Assembly: GCA_938001995.1 (NCBI GenBank)
Contig: CALLAV010000223.1
Location: forward strand, 1 to 18,685
DNA length: 18,685 bases
Direction: 5' to 3'
Origin: an uncultured Amylibacter sp.
GTDB taxonomy: Bacteria; Pseudomonadota; Alphaproteobacteria; Rhodobacterales; Rhodobacteraceae
Under the pieces are notes generated by a model that saw nothing but the letters and a program-made list of their open reading frames with translations, was not told where the DNA came from and did not search any database. This document shows positions 13,541 through 18,685 of this stretch, one piece after another. Position 1 is the first letter of the stretch. Each line of letters begins with the position of its first letter. Both the position numbers and the translations under genes were made by a program.

Positions 13541-14071
13541 TTAGCTGGCTCCGCGCAACCGTTGTGCACCGCGTGCATCACGCGATGTGGGGGCCAACCA
13601 GATACCAAAGAACCGCTGACGCAGGTTCGGATAGCTCATGGTACAGCTTTTGCGCCCGTTCACATACAGGGCCACTTTGCTGGCAGTTTCAGCAACGCCC
13701 GTTATACGCGTGCCTTTGTCTACATCCACCAAACACTTGGTCAGTTGCTTTTCCAAACTCGCGTGTTTTGCAGGGGAACTGCCTTCAACCCGCGCGATTT
13801 CTTCGACGGAAGAACGGGCAAGCACTTCGCGAGTGAACGGATACAGATAGCTAATAGTCAGCGCGAACTGTTGATCGAAGCTGAACTTGCCAGGTTTGCT
13901 GGTCCACAGCTCAGCATTGAACAGTTTGAACCCCCAATACCGTGCAGTGTGCTTGCCCTGCAATTGCGGCGTCGAGATTTGGCTTTCTACCTCTTTGGGG
14001 GCCGCCATCGCTGGGGCCACTGATACCGCCGCAACCAGAGCAGCTGCGAGCATCGTTTTGAACATCTTCAT
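13541..14071 (-). CDS. Chalcone isomerase-like periplasmic protein
   Basis: A 176-residue protein with a Sec signal peptide (MKMFK, a hydrophobic alanine/valine core, AMA cleavage near residue 23). The mature part resembles the bacterial chalcone-isomerase-like domain: GKHTARYWGFKLFNAELW (about 39-56), the SYLYPFTREVLARSSVEEI region, and a conserved late segment NGRKSCTMSYPNLRQRFFGIWL (about 138-159). Plant enzymes of this fold bind flavonoids or fatty acids; the bacterial members are not enzymatically defined, and fatty-acid binding would fit this operon (inference). Start and stop are coupled to both neighbours, ATGA with DUF1365 and a direct junction with the MFS gene. Confidence 0.82.
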   Translation of the reverse strand: MKMFKTMLAAALVAAVSVAPAMAAPKEVESQISTPQLQGKHTARYWGFKLFNAELWTSKPGKFSFDQQFALTISYLYPFTREVLARSSVEEIARVEGSSPAKHASLEKQLTKCLVDVDKGTRITGVAETASKVALYVNGRKSCTMSYPNLRQRFFGIWLAPTSRDARGAQRLRGAS

Positions 14072-14832
14072 GAAGATACCTCCGTTTCAGGTGCGACAGG
14101 GCGCGCGCGAAAGCCCGCACCCTTCCACCACAATCGCACCGCTTGCCAATGGATCAGCGCAAGCACCCGCAGCGACCCGAGGGGCCGCGCGACAGCTGCG
14201 CCGATAATGGAACTGTTTGTCATCTTTTGGCGGCGTCCGTGGAACGTCGCATACACACCGCTTTCGGCACTGCGGTAGTCAATAACAATGCCAACATGTT
14301 CATCCGTCACATCAAAGCGAAAGGTGTATTCCCCCGCGATAGGTTGGAACGGTGACACATGAAAAATCTTCTGAGCCTTTAAACGATCCGTTGGCAGGAT
14401 CGGGCTAAGGTCTTTGTGATAACACAAGTAGGAATGGCGATCCCCGTAGGTGTTGTTCACCTCGGCGATAACCATACGCAGCACGTCGGACGTATCATAG
14501 ACGAGCCAAAAAGCGACGGGGTTGAACACATGACCCCATACCCGTGGCTGGGCGAGCAAAAGAATGCGGCCTTTGGTCAAACCTTCAAATCCGTGGTCTG
14601 TCAAAACTTCGCGTACCCAATCGAGCCCGCGTCCGTTGCCCCGTTCACCACCGTGATCCACATCATAAAGCGCGGTCACGTTGCCCTTGTTGCGCGAAAA
14701 AAGGCGCGGGCTTTCGGCGTTGGACGCCAAATCCGTCAGCACATAATCCACACGGTAGCGGAACGCGTTTTTGATCGCGCCGTGTCTGCCGTGGTAGGTG
14801 TGGCCACAGATATGATCGGGGCTCATGCCCAT
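14068..14832 (-). CDS. DUF1365 family protein
   Basis: A 254-residue DUF1365 protein, near the usual family length. Conserved segments are HTYHGRHGAIKNAFRYRVDY (11-30), LDWVREVL (70-77), and RVWGHVFNPVAFWLVYD (96-112), plus VSPFQPIAGEYTF (about 155-167). Function is not biochemically settled in general. In proteobacteria it sits beside an FAD amine-oxidase-like gene, often with a cyclopropane-fatty-acid-synthase-like methyltransferase, and is linked to fatty-acid modification under singlet oxygen stress (from memory). Two starts are possible: 14832, or 14826, which gives an ATGA overlap with the upstream stop. Its own stop overlaps the chalcone-isomerase-like gene by ATGA. Confidence 0.9.
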   Translation of the reverse strand: MGMSPDHICGHTYHGRHGAIKNAFRYRVDYVLTDLASNAESPRLFSRNKGNVTALYDVDHGGERGNGRGLDWVREVLTDHGFEGLTKGRILLLAQPRVWGHVFNPVAFWLVYDTSDVLRMVIAEVNNTYGDRHSYLCYHKDLSPILPTDRLKAQKIFHVSPFQPIAGEYTFRFDVTDEHVGIVIDYRSAESGVYATFHGRRQKMTNSSIIGAAVARPLGSLRVLALIHWQAVRLWWKGAGFRARPVAPETEVSS

Positions 14833-16109
14833 TGCGGCACCATCCCCATATCCTCGGCCACATCAACGCCGCTGGAATATCCGTCTTCATGAAAGCCATT
14901 GCGCATGTACGCACCACAGAACCACGTGTTCTGCTGACCCTGAATAGATTTCAGTTTGGTTTGCGCATCAAGTGCCGCACGATCAAACACGGGATGCATG
15001 AAGTTGGTTTCTTCATAGGTCAGCTCGTCTTTGATGTTCACACTGGGATTCAACGATCCCAGCAACAGATCATCGTGCGGGATCGGCTGAAGCGAGTTCA
15101 TCCAATAGGTAATGCCAACAGGGTCCGCCACGTTTTGCTTGGCCGTGGAATAGGTCCAACTGGCCCAACACGCCTTGCGCTTTGGCATAACGGCGGGATC
15201 GGCATGCAATACAGCACGGTTGTTTTGGTATTTGATTGCACTGAGCAGCGCTGTTTCATCGGCGGATGGGTCTGCCAACATCGCTAAAGCCTGATCCGAA
15301 TGGCAAGCAAAAACGATACGATCGAATTGCTCCCATTCGCCCCCTACAGACCGCACTTCAACGCCCTTGGCGTTGCGTCGCACGCCTTGCACGTCTGCAC
15401 CCAAACGAATGTCGCATTGCTGATTGCGCATCGCAGTTTCCATCCGATTAACATATTCGATGGAGCCGCCTTCAACAGTGTACCACTGATGCTGTCCATA
15501 AACGCCAAGCAGGTTATGGTTTTGGAAAAACCGCGTCAAAGCCTGCGCAGGAAAGGATAGCATTTGTTCCAAGGGCGTGGACCAGATCGCGCCAGAAAAC
15601 GGCAGCAGATAGTATTTCTGAAACCACTCGCCCATCTTCAAGCGCTGCATCAATTCCCCAAGCGTCACATTCGGGTCTTGCGCAACTTTCACGGCTTTTG
15701 CATTGAACCGCATGATGTCGACGAGCATTCCCAGAAATTTCGGGTTCACCATATTGCTTTTTTGCGCGAACAACGCCGCTAGATCATTCAACGCATATTC
15801 CACGCGCCCACCATCCGCCGACACGCCGAAGCTCATGTCGCTTTTGGCAATCGGCACGTCCAGCTCTTTGAACAGCGCAGCCAGCCGAGGATAGTTTGCA
15901 TAATTGAACACGATAAATCCTGTATCTACCGGTTGATCGCCGTTTTTCCCCGCTATGACGGTCCGCGCGTGGCCACCCAAACGTTTCTCGCTTTCGAACA
16001 AGGTGACGTTATGTGCTTTGGACAGCATGTGTGCGGCCCCCATGCCCGATATCCCTGCCCCGACAACTGCGATTTTCAGTGGGGCACTTAGAGCGTACTC
16101 AAACGGCAT
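14823..16109 (-). CDS. FAD/NAD(P)-dependent amine oxidase-like oxidoreductase, first gene of the sigma-E-controlled operon
   Basis: A flavoprotein of 428 residues. The Rossmann motif is VVGAGISGMGAAHML (15-29), with E39 for the ribose and GGHART at 45-50; the C-terminal FAD contact lies in CGAYMRNGFHEDGYSSG near 401-417. It belongs to the amine-oxidase/phytoene-desaturase-like group that accompanies DUF1365 genes. The ATG has AGGA 7 nt upstream and begins 28 nt after the proposed sigma-E -10. In R. sphaeroides, products of the equivalent sigma-E operon (UfaD and UfaO) convert methylated unsaturated fatty acids towards furan fatty acids. This gene is a candidate for one of these steps, but I do not assign the symbol without alignment. 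Confidence 0.9.
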   Translation of the reverse strand: MPFEYALSAPLKIAVVGAGISGMGAAHMLSKAHNVTLFESEKRLGGHARTVIAGKNGDQPVDTGFIVFNYANYPRLAALFKELDVPIAKSDMSFGVSADGGRVEYALNDLAALFAQKSNMVNPKFLGMLVDIMRFNAKAVKVAQDPNVTLGELMQRLKMGEWFQKYYLLPFSGAIWSTPLEQMLSFPAQALTRFFQNHNLLGVYGQHQWYTVEGGSIEYVNRMETAMRNQQCDIRLGADVQGVRRNAKGVEVRSVGGEWEQFDRIVFACHSDQALAMLADPSADETALLSAIKYQNNRAVLHADPAVMPKRKACWASWTYSTAKQNVADPVGITYWMNSLQPIPHDDLLLGSLNPSVNIKDELTYEETNFMHPVFDRAALDAQTKLKSIQGQQNTWFCGAYMRNGFHEDGYSSGVDVAEDMGMVPQWA

Positions 16110-16136: not shown

Positions 16137-16166
16137 TAGATACGCGCCCGAGCGCGGATTAGATCA
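16137..16166 (-). promoter_or_regulatory. Sigma-E-type promoter for the oxidoreductase/DUF1365 operon
   Basis: On the minus strand, TGATCT (16166-16161), extended by TAAG upstream and AA downstream, is followed after 18 nt by TATCTA (16142-16137) with GCG just before it. The twin element on the plus strand has the same extended -35, spacing and pre -10 GCG. TGATCC-like -35 boxes are known for R. sphaeroides RpoE. Transcription would begin near 16130, leaving a leader of about 20 nt that holds AGGA. Confidence 0.75.
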
Positions 16167-16200: not shown

Positions 16201-16230
16201 TGATCCAACCCTGACTGGGCTGCGTACACC
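16201..16230 (+). promoter_or_regulatory. Sigma-E-type autoregulatory promoter of rpoE-chrR
   Basis: On the plus strand, TGATCC (16201-16206), preceded by TTAAG and followed by AA, lies 18 nt before TACACC (16225-16230), again with GCG before it. Of the 18 spacer bases, 11 match the opposing promoter. Transcription would begin near 16237, which makes the ATG at 16235 unusable and gives a leader of about 95 nt to the preferred rpoE start. Confidence 0.72.
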
Positions 16231-16330
16231 TTGTATGATTGAAGCAAGCACCCTTTTGGAGAAAACCGATGCACCGCGTCTGATGACGGGGTACAAATCG
16301 CTTGCGGACAAGCCAAAGCTAAGGAAACAA

Positions 16331-16891
16331 ATGGCACGGACCACCGAAGCGCCCCGTCCAGAAGCGGATTGGTCGCGCAAAATACTTTCGGTCAGAGACA
16401 CCCGTGACGAGGGTGCCTTTGCGGAGCTGTTTGCGCATTTTGCCCCTAGAATCAAAGGCTTCCTGATAAAATCAGGGGCCTCTGCAACAATGGCAGAAGA
16501 ATGTGCGCAAGAAGCAATGGTGACTTTATGGAACAAAGCACATCTATTTGATCCGTCCCGCGCATCCGCGGCGACGTGGATCTTTACGATTGCTCGAAAC
16601 AAAAAAATTGACGCCTTCCGCCGCGCTGCACGGCCAGAGCCTGAGGACCTGCCATGGGGTCCAGAGCCAGAACCAGAAGCAGCGGATGCGATGGCGCTTC
16701 AACAGGAAACACAAAAACTTGCCAAAGCGATTGAGGAATTGCCGCAAAAACAGCGTGACATTGTGCGTCGCGCCTATTTTGGCGATCTGTCTCATGCGGA
16801 ATTGGCAGAAGAAACCGGTTTGCCTCTTGGCACAATCAAATCCCGAATTAGGTTGGCGCTGACTCGACTGCGCCAAACACTGAGTGAGTAA
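16331..16891 (+). CDS. rpoE: ECF RNA polymerase sigma factor, RpoE (ChrR-partnered, ECF11-like)
   Basis: An ECF sigma factor of 186 residues. Region 2 (about 28-98) includes FAELFAHFAPRIKGFL, ECAQEAMVTLWNKAHLFD and TWIFTIARNKKIDAFRR. Region 4 (about 132-184) includes LPQKQRDIVRRAYFGDLSHAEL and the recognition helix GLPLGTIKSRIRLALTRLR. The start at 16331 has AAGGA about 5 nt upstream; the open frame reaches back to 16235, but that start coincides with the predicted transcription start. The chrR-type anti-sigma gene begins 5 nt after the stop, and a sigma-E promoter precedes the gene, so autoregulation is expected. Known role in R. sphaeroides: response to singlet oxygen. Confidence 0.93.
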   Translation: MARTTEAPRPEADWSRKILSVRDTRDEGAFAELFAHFAPRIKGFLIKSGASATMAEECAQEAMVTLWNKAHLFDPSRASAATWIFTIARNKKIDAFRRAARPEPEDLPWGPEPEPEAADAMALQQETQKLAKAIEELPQKQRDIVRRAYFGDLSHAELAEETGLPLGTIKSRIRLALTRLRQTLSE

Positions 16892-16896
16892 ATGAA

Positions 16897-17535
16897 ATGA
16901 CTGTAAAACATGTACTGAATGATCAGCTTGCAATGGGCTACGCCGCTGGTGTTTTGCCCGAGGCGTTTGACGTTGTTGTCGCTGCGCACCTGTCCCTGTC
17001 GGACGAGGCGCGCGCAATGGTAAGCAGCTATGAAGCCGTTGGCGCATGCCTGATGGAAGATTGCGAGTGCTTTGACATGAAGCCCGACGCCTTCGCCTCT
17101 ACGCTCAATCGGATCAAGCAGAGCGACATTGTGGTTGAAAAGCCAAAAGCCAAGAACGTGCTGCCAGAACCGATCCAAAAGTATTTTGGCGGCGATGTAG
17201 ACAAGGTAAAATGGAAATCCTTGGGCGGCGGCGTTAAGCAAGCCATCCTGCCAACGGACAGCAAAGCGCAGGCACGCCTGTTGTACATTCCCGCGGGGCA
17301 ATCAGTACCGGATCACGGTCACCGCGGCTTAGAACTGACACTGGTGTTGCAAGGCTCTTTTGCGGATGAAGTGGATCACTTTGGCCGTGGCGACCTAGAA
17401 ATCGCGAACGAAGAACTGGATCACCAACCTGTTGCGGGCATGGAGGCAGATTGCATCTGTCTTGCGGCGACTGACGCGCCGCTACGGTTCAACGGTTTGA
17501 TTCCACGCATTTTACAGCCGTTCTTCAAAATCTAA
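16897..17535 (+). CDS. chrR: ChrR-type anti-sigma factor (cupin), lacking the N-terminal zinc cysteines
   Basis: Binds and silences the adjacent sigma factor. It has 212 residues: an N-terminal anti-sigma domain (about 1-85) and a C-terminal cupin (about 105-195). In R. sphaeroides ChrR, as I recall it, the N-terminal zinc is held by H6, H31, C35 and C38. Here H5 and H31 are present, but the sequence is HLSLSDEA, so Ser35 and Ala38 replace both cysteines. Codons are TCG and GCG, not a one-base misread of a cysteine. Nearby cysteines C51, C56 and C58 might compensate. The cupin metal set is intact (H140, H142, E146, H176), matching R. sphaeroides H141, H143, E147 and H177. The gene is 5 nt after rpoE and is followed by a terminator. 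Confidence 0.92.
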   Translation: MTVKHVLNDQLAMGYAAGVLPEAFDVVVAAHLSLSDEARAMVSSYEAVGACLMEDCECFDMKPDAFASTLNRIKQSDIVVEKPKAKNVLPEPIQKYFGGDVDKVKWKSLGGGVKQAILPTDSKAQARLLYIPAGQSVPDHGHRGLELTLVLQGSFADEVDHFGRGDLEIANEELDHQPVAGMEADCICLAATDAPLRFNGLIPRILQPFFKI

Positions 17536-17556: not shown

Positions 17557-18685
17557 TCAGGGGTCCTTGCGGCCCCTTTTTTCTGCCATTTTGCGAATGT
17601 TGCGCACCATCATCCACACCACAAGCACAACCGGTGCGACCACAATTGCGCCGACCCAGCTTTCTGTCAGGCCAACTTGTTTTCCAAACGGATACAAGAA
17701 TTTCACCAGCAGGCTGACGGCGTAGTAGCTGATTGCAACCACAGACAAACCTTCGACAGTTTCTTGTAAACGCAACTGCAATGCTGCGCGTTTGTCCATT
17801 GTTTCTAGGATCCTACGGTTTTGATCGTTGACCTGAACGCTGACCCGCGTGCCAAGCAATCGTGACGCCCGCGCCGCACGACCAGAAATATCCGACAACC
17901 TTGCTGAGGCGGACCGACAGGTGCGCATCGCAGGTTCAAAACGACGCATCATGAATTCGGAAAACAACTGATATCCAGACAACCGTTCCTCGCGCAGCAC
18001 ATTCACACGCGAATACACCAGCGCAGAGTAGGCCTCCGCGGCGGTAAACCGAAACGCGGTCTCTGCGGAAAAGCTCTCAACCTTGCTGGAAATGTCCAAC
18101 AAATGGTTCAGCTCTTCTTGCGAGTCGTCCGTTTCCTCGGTCATTCCCGATACGACTTTGCCAAGATCGCGGTCCAAATCAGACAGTCGCGCGAACACAT
18201 CCCGCGCAATAGGCAGCGTCAGCATGGACATGGTTTTATAGGTCTCAATCTCGATCAAACGCTGCACAATACGGCCCATACGATGCCCGCCCGTATCCCC
18301 CACTTGGAACACCGCAAACCTGATGTGGCCTTGCTCGTCCAAACGGAAATCTCCGACAATCGCGGCCTCTTTTTCCAGTACAAAAGCCGCAGCCATTGCC
18401 TCATCAAAAAACCATTCTGGCCCAACTTTGTGGACCCGCTTAATGACCTCAGTCGGATTTTTCGCGGCCTCAATCCGCACAAGAACAGAGGACAAAAGCC
18501 GCCCAGGGCTCTTGTCGCGCCACGCATCAGGGAAAAACTTGAACAGGTCACCAGAAAACGGCACCTCGGACACTTGGTCAGAAAACAACGTATATGTCGC
18601 GAATTCGGAATGGCGTTCCCATTTCAGTCGAACCTTGCCCAAATCAGCAGAGTGATGCGAGGCATCGGGCGCTGGATGTGCCGCA
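17557..18685 (-). CDS. DUF3422 family membrane protein, 5' end cut by window
   Basis: A DUF3422 protein; 375 residues are visible and the frame is open to the right edge, so the N-terminus (roughly 50 residues by family length) is missing. Family landmarks are the segment HHSADLGKVRLKWERHSEFATYTLF near the window edge, VGDFRLDE, RMGRIVQRLIEIETYKTM and the long helical region after it. Two C-terminal membrane segments (about GLSVVAISYYAVSLLVKFLYPF, and WVGAIVVAPVVLVVWMMV) end in a basic tail. The architecture resembles RMD1/YagE-like and CorA-like proteins, but function is unknown. Any start inside the window, such as TTG 18642, is artificial. It converges on chrR with 21 nt between the stops. 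Confidence 0.9.
   Translation of the reverse strand, partial: AAHPAPDASHHSADLGKVRLKWERHSEFATYTLFSDQVSEVPFSGDLFKFFPDAWRDKSPGRLLSSVLVRIEAAKNPTEVIKRVHKVGPEWFFDEAMAAAFVLEKEAAIVGDFRLDEQGHIRFAVFQVGDTGGHRMGRIVQRLIEIETYKTMSMLTLPIARDVFARLSDLDRDLGKVVSGMTEETDDSQEELNHLLDISSKVESFSAETAFRFTAAEAYSALVYSRVNVLREERLSGYQLFSEFMMRRFEPAMRTCRSASARLSDISGRAARASRLLGTRVSVQVNDQNRRILETMDKRAALQLRLQETVEGLSVVAISYYAVSLLVKFLYPFGKQVGLTESWVGAIVVAPVVLVVWMMVRNIRKMAEKRGRKDP
17560..17582 (+). terminator. Rho-independent terminator of rpoE-chrR
   Basis: GGGG-T-CC pairs with GG-CCCC around a TTGC loop (one bulged T), followed by six T at 17577-17582. It starts 25 nt after the chrR stop. It lies wholly inside the last codons of the convergent DUF3422 gene. 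Confidence 0.8.

Follow-up and report, generated by a model that had tools for sequence, protein, structure and literature searches.

The closest described system is the ECF11 anti-sigma factor ChrR of R. sphaeroides (PDB 2z2s and 2q1z), whose structure paper is reportedly Campbell 2007. E. coli RseA and M. tuberculosis RskA are membrane proteins that are not known to have a cupin. The zinc ligands of the R. sphaeroides ChrR anti-sigma domain are given as 6His, 31His, 35Cys, and 38Cys in a review (PMC6852236), which describes zinc binding as required for inhibition of sigma-E and a fold common to the ChrR and RseA domains, held by zinc in the former and by protein contacts in the latter. Only the second histidine of the N-terminal HH pair is reported to bind zinc, giving the motif H-X24-H-X3-C-X2-C (PMC6432622). 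RseA and RskA are described as lacking the zinc motif, and zinc and non-zinc anti-sigma domains are intermixed across the superfamily tree (PMC7406223); groups AS19-1 and AS27 contain members of both kinds, and the account of mixed groups in that source does not name ECF11/ChrR. B. subtilis RsiW is reported to bind its sigma factor whether zinc is present or not (PMC5358783).

Singlet-oxygen sensing by ChrR is placed in the cupin by PMC2877774 and PMC4960319, and oxidation at the zinc-cysteine site has been suggested, from work with a model peptide, to contribute to sensing (PMC6432622). Full activation in R. sphaeroides is described as needing RSP_1091 and RSP_1090, whose operon adjoins rpoE-chrR and has its own RpoE-dependent promoter, and RSP_1090 as required for ChrR degradation under singlet oxygen (PMC3818230). 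Loss of the zinc site within ChrR/ECF11 was not reported in the titles and abstract beginnings of the open-licence literature, among the matches listed.

The window (the whole stretch of DNA analyzed, 18,685 nucleotides of contig CALLAV010000223.1 from an uncultured Amylibacter sp.) carries chrR at 16897..17535 (+ strand), which encodes a ChrR-family anti-sigma factor of 212 aa with a zinc-less N-terminal anti-sigma domain and a cupin domain. The protein passes the curated cut-off of TIGR02451 (210.6 versus 124.5 bits) and the cut-off of Cupin_7 (50 versus 27 bits) and fails that of NF051881, the equivalog for cadmium/peroxide/UV-responsive ChrR (155.1 versus 300 bits). Its only sequence matches in the PDB are R. 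sphaeroides ChrR 2z2s and 2q1z, and the alignment to 2z2s_B (E 1.1e-65) is free of gaps up to residue 74, so that residue numbers map directly onto R. sphaeroides ChrR, with which the window protein shares both domains, the cupin ligands, and an ungapped zinc region. Codon 5 (16909-16911, +) encodes a His opposite the nonligand H5. Codon 6 (16912..16914, +) is GTA and places Val opposite the R. sphaeroides zinc ligand His6 (PMC6852236, PMC6432622), and codon 31 (16987..16989, +) is CAC, a His opposite H31 and the sole zinc ligand retained in the domain. Codon 35 (16999..17001, +) is TCG, which replaces the ligand Cys35 with Ser directly before helix III of the model, and codon 38 (17008..17010, +) is GCG, which replaces the ligand Cys38 with Ala.

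The initial annotation had read both N-terminal cysteines as lost, and the alignment, with no gap through residue 74 and S35 and A38 opposite C35 and C38, bears this out. It had also counted H5 as a retained fourth ligand; this was mistaken, the ligand being His6 in the published descriptions (PMC6852236, PMC6432622) and Val6 occupying that place in the window. The alignment therefore confirms that the anti-sigma domain has lost three of its four zinc ligands (H6V, C35S, C38A), in which the window protein differs from R. sphaeroides ChrR. The suggestion that the domain may bind no N-terminal zinc thereby gains support, and the additional loss of H6 strengthens it. The ZAS motif H-x3-C-x2-C is absent and reads H31-LSL-S35-DE-A38, and its fourth ligand, a His or Cys 24-25 residues ahead of the motif (His6 in ChrR), is likewise missing (Val6); H5 stands at X25 spacing, yet in ChrR it reportedly does not bind the zinc (PMC6432622). 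Because Ser occupies position 35 in 41 of the 120 best-listed homologues, the window protein included, Ser35 is not a sequencing error. As the initial annotation had also stated, all four cupin metal ligands (H140, H142, E146, and H176, in the pattern HxH...E...H; 17314..17424, +) are kept; none of them varies among the 52 zinc-less sequences of alignment A1, which was built without relatives whose cupin ligands are altered.

The genes around chrR are arranged as in R. sphaeroides, with an adjacent sigma-E, a divergent RSP_1091-1087-like operon, and sigma-E-type promoters (gene order according to PMC3818230). The ECF11-type sigma-E partner, rpoE (16331..16891, +), encodes 186 aa from ATG 16331; an AAGGA at 16321-16325 precedes this codon, which is probably a better start than the 16235 of the ORF list. 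A sigma-E-type promoter, TGATCC-N16-CGTA (16201..16226, +), lies ahead of rpoE-chrR, and a divergent one, TGATCT-N16-CGTA (16141..16166, -), ahead of the RSP_1091-like operon. TGATC[C/T]-N16-CGTA was found upstream of rpoE in 59 of 59 rows, 666-724 bases before chrR, at a chance that we estimated by hand as well under 0.01 per locus. The divergent operon begins with an RSP_1091-like flavin amine oxidase/oxidoreductase (14823..16109, -), assigned from Pfam and from position and gene order (PMC3818230), and continues with an RSP_1090-like DUF1365 protein (14068..14832, -), assigned from Pfam and gene order (PMC3818230); that RSP_1090 is itself a DUF1365 protein we infer from gene order. Beyond the DUF1365 gene come a weak chalcone-isomerase-like match and then MFS, DUF3833, and SDR genes. 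On the other side, a DUF3422 gene (17557-18685, -) is convergent with chrR; its N terminus is probably cut off, since the match begins at profile position 70 and the window ends there.

The comparison set joined 303 proteins, gathered in three database searches from the top 120 entries of each (of 6888, 2142, and 1134 hits, respectively), with the chrR genes of the fetched genomes, L001 being the same locus as that of the window. After copies and the contig-edge fragments L038 and L052 were removed and the R. sphaeroides reference was added, it counted 476 distinct ChrR sequences. Scored at positions 6, 31, 35, and 38, 352 of these have CxxC, 15 have one Cys, 91 have neither, and 18 with a missing start were unscorable; because the set was gathered around zinc-less queries by similarity, these fractions are not frequencies in nature. 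H6 and H31 are both kept in all 352 CxxC proteins and in only 16 of the 91 lacking both cysteines, 21 of which have Gln at position 31, and no sequence of the 476 has lost a His ligand while keeping both cysteines. When Cys loss was set against His loss on the tree, the starred branches offered only one independent pair that could be used. The neighboring H5 behaves independently of the zinc site, being His in 351/352 CxxC, 15/15 one-Cys, and 91/91 no-Cys proteins. A group of 201-aa HQSA-type ChrR entries (P0124-P0127 and P0129-P0141) starts at an internal Met and so drops the N-terminal HH; these look like errors of start-site annotation, since in L046, a copy read from a genome, there is a start farther upstream.

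What replaces the ligands is restricted. In the 91 zinc-less proteins, position 35 is Ser (89) or Asn (2), position 38 is Ser (55), Ala (33), or Gly (3), and position 6 is frequently aliphatic. Arg, Tyr, Phe, and Trp, whose codons are also one base change from TGY, do not occur at 35 or 38 in any of the 91. H5, D36, and R39 are invariant and S35 nearly so in the 52 zinc-less A1 sequences.

The invariance of H5 and D36 could be taken to mean that metal is still held by other ligands, for example by H5, H31, D36/E37, Ser hydroxyls, or C51/C56/C58, and C51 and C56 occur together in 29/91 zinc-less versus 1/352 CxxC proteins, many of the 29 being close relatives of the window. We consider this quite improbable. 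The initial annotation had proposed C51, C56, and C58, all present in the window protein, as substitutes, and as general replacement ligands they were rejected: residues 1-88 are free of cysteine in 43 of the 91, and all three cysteines occur in just five, the window protein included. H31 is also lost in the 21 proteins with Gln at that position, C51 lies in the model near the end of helix III that is far from position 35, and the near-universal H5 of zinc-type ChrR is reported as a nonligand there (PMC6432622).

The initial annotation had left it undecided whether the loss was unique or clade-wide; it is clade-wide, and probably of more than one origin, with a single origin not rejected. In a draw from the window's family, 325 of 394 genomes, nearly all of different genera, had a chrR match. 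Among the best-scoring 149 of these matches (from other genera, the window's own excluded), 144 read H31-C35-C38, four lack both cysteines (L111, L113, L139, and L163), and one lacks C38 alone (L172). A ChrR match was present in 23 of the 33 genomes of the window's genus, the one in G401 being an 87%-identical contig-edge fragment without the anti-sigma domain; among the 22 readable proteins, 14 lack both cysteines (window included), one lacks a single cysteine, and seven have CxxC.

Loss of C35 with C38 kept was seen in 0 of 476 sequences and the reverse does occur, from which it follows that C38 was probably lost before C35. The Ser38 codon of the single-Cys genome L044 is AGC, as are those of 8 of the 9 loci read (the ninth, L040, has AGT), and these codons fit a stepwise path out of an L044-like state. 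Ser35 is encoded by TCN in L113 and the clade of the window and by AGY in L111, L163, and the four HQSA genomes, and the Asn35 codon of L139 is AAT. Serine codons of the TCN and AGY types are two base changes apart, each being one change from a TGY cysteine, which makes it likely that the site was lost several times independently. In agreement, the best 190-row protein tree needs seven changes, of which at least three are forced by starred branches. AU tests on a 69-row subset rejected neither a single clade of the rows lacking at least one Cys (p 0.33) nor a single clade of those lacking both (p 0.64), and the latter constrained tree was 10.1 log units better than the free tree. As one origin is thus left unrejected, that the zinc site was lost more than once stays likely and is put no more strongly.

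Zinc-less chrR genes are under purifying selection. Across seven unsaturated zinc-less gene pairs, dN/dS was 0.04-0.36 for the whole gene and 0.05-0.48 for the anti-sigma domain, and 0.04-0.07 for three pairs within the L041-L043 group; saturated pairs (pS above 0.7) are left out of this conclusion. Most pairs vary more in the domain than in the cupin, as HHCC ChrR also do, and the median ratio of domain dN to cupin dN was 1.26 in zinc-less pairs versus 1.79 in 4311 HHCC pairs, the seven pairs being nonindependent and the HHCC controls mostly more distant. The zinc-less domain is therefore not specially relaxed.

These values bear on the suggestion of the initial annotation that the protein may be a constitutively weak inhibitor. 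In a fuller form, this alternative has a weakened and partly constitutive inhibitor whose zinc site was lost under relaxed selection, in lineages on the way to loss of the whole system. As an account of the window protein it keeps some standing, since inhibition by R. sphaeroides ChrR is described as requiring zinc (PMC6852236), neither sigma-E nor ChrR was found in 10 of the 33 genus genomes (G395, G399, G400, G403, G404, G407, G408, G414, G416, and G422), and a branch that includes L053, L054, and L060 has lost cupin ligands as well, the L053 match also containing a stop codon. In those 10 genomes, some of which are incomplete, the search for a sigma-E orthologue gave weak matches (E 6.5e-16 or worse) or none; G403 lacks both genes despite its reaction-center genes and DUF1365. 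We do not favor this alternative and regard it as unlikely. The dN/dS values are well below 1 with a domain-to-cupin relaxation no greater than in HHCC genes, the promoter is conserved, D36 and R39 are invariant and S35 is nearly so, and a sigma-E orthologue adjoins ChrR in all 22 genus genomes with a readable ChrR, none having sigma-E without ChrR. The sigma-E proteins of 15 zinc-less and 42 HHCC ChrR differ strongly at 25 positions; these differences may follow relatedness alone, and no compensating contact is claimed.

The reading that we prefer, and hold to be probable, is that the window protein is an orthologue of R. sphaeroides ChrR whose zinc-free domain holds sigma-E and which senses through the cupin and an RSP_1091/1090-type arm. 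From the sequence comparisons and models we infer that the four-helix domain would still fold without metal and sequester sigma-E, with ordinary packing taking the place of the zinc that joins helices I-III in R. sphaeroides. Serine and asparagine are good helix N-cap residues. Ser35 or Asn35 would cap the start of helix III instead of a metal-bound thiolate, a small residue at 38 would keep the core packed, and position 6 would often carry an aliphatic residue. With packing in place of zinc, inhibition would be zinc independent, as in RseA or RskA; by this analogy, zinc-free inhibition by the window protein is plausible.

The full-length structure model (pLDDT 87.0) has domain helices at 9-17, 22-32, 36-53, and 65-75 and matches the class I anti-sigma fold of a three-helix bundle plus helix IV, as a prediction with a large rmsd (8.7-9.0 A against 2q1z/2z2s, TMq 0.67-0.73). 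The domain-only model is mediocre (pLDDT 75.9, pTM 0.47; rmsd 6.7-9.6 A to ChrR chains, best Foldseek E 1.1e-3), and the alignment behind it mixed zinc-less and HHCC sequences. The nearest PDB chains to the models are ChrR, and helix III begins at 36 in both, which places residue 35 at the N-cap. Because AlphaFold does not respond to point changes, the models are no proof of stability.

On the preferred reading, singlet oxygen would act by way of the intact cupin metal site and the RSP_1091/1090-type arm to bring about degradation of ChrR and release of sigma-E, with no oxidation of a zinc-cysteine site. Two PF00124 reaction-center genes lie side by side in three of the 33 genus genomes, namely, the window's genome, G401, and G403, and the window's organism is probably an anoxygenic phototroph. 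Singlet oxygen is thus probably still a hazard to it, and absence of exposure would be a poor reason for loss of the zinc site. The other 30 genomes have no PF00124 match, as would be expected had the clade ceased to sense singlet oxygen and turned to another signal for which zinc is not needed; that is highly improbable here, given the PF00124 genes of the window's genome and G401 and the retention of the RSP_1091/1090-like operon and the cupin ligands in the window. Five of the 33 genomes have a rhodopsin above the cut-off, and the four genomes with HQSA ChrR carry one.

Further losses are seen in one branch. Six to eight cysteines occur in the first 90 residues of L054:1498-2136 (-), L060:1498-2124 (+), L051, L053, and P0221-P0231, and several members of this branch also lack the cupin metal ligands. 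Among the genus genomes, the cupin ligands are lost as well in G406, G409, and G412, which fall in a 13-row clade with many cysteines within and just after the domain. Four genomes of the cysteine-rich branch have neither DUF1365 nor a divergent sigma-E promoter beside rpoE. Of the 23 ChrR genomes, five lack DUF1365; cupin ligands are lost in three of these five and in none of the 18 that have DUF1365 (Fisher p 0.0056), the three sharing ancestry and so representing one or few events. On this pattern, the fate of the cupin site seems tied to that of the DUF1365 arm, and neither seems bound to the zinc site. Two pairs of the cysteine-rich branch gave dN/dS of 0.17 and 0.20. The ChrR of this branch may be a thiol-based regulator with changed wiring, or it may be in decay.

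Set against the systems described elsewhere, the window protein resembles B. subtilis RsiW in that zinc-independent sigma binding, reported there (PMC5358783), is proposed here; RsiW retains its CHCC ligands, whereas those of the window protein are themselves gone. Unlike the zinc-free class I proteins RseA and RskA, it comes from a soluble family described as zinc dependent and has lost the site. Given the mixed superfamily (PMC7406223) and the placement of sensing in the cupin (PMC2877774, PMC4960319), a zinc-free domain and cupin sensing are both of kinds already known; what the open-licence titles and abstract beginnings listed did not report is loss of the zinc site inside the ChrR/ECF11 group.

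A clade that has lost the site and kept the cupin ligands and the RSP_1091/1090-like operon, with reaction-center genes in the window's genome, offers a natural test: it would separate the structural from the sensing role of zinc while avoiding mutants that may unfold. More tentatively, and with somewhat less than even confidence, we propose that the ChrR domain needs its zinc neither to hold sigma-E nor to sense singlet oxygen, that a lineage with a probable bacteriochlorophyll phototroph among its members mounts the whole response with a Ser-capped, metal-free domain and senses by the cupin and RSP_1091/1090-type arm only, and that a sister branch may be a new thiol-based sensor. If so, the sister branch, without the cupin ligands and DUF1365 and with at least six cysteines in or beside the domain, would have gone further.
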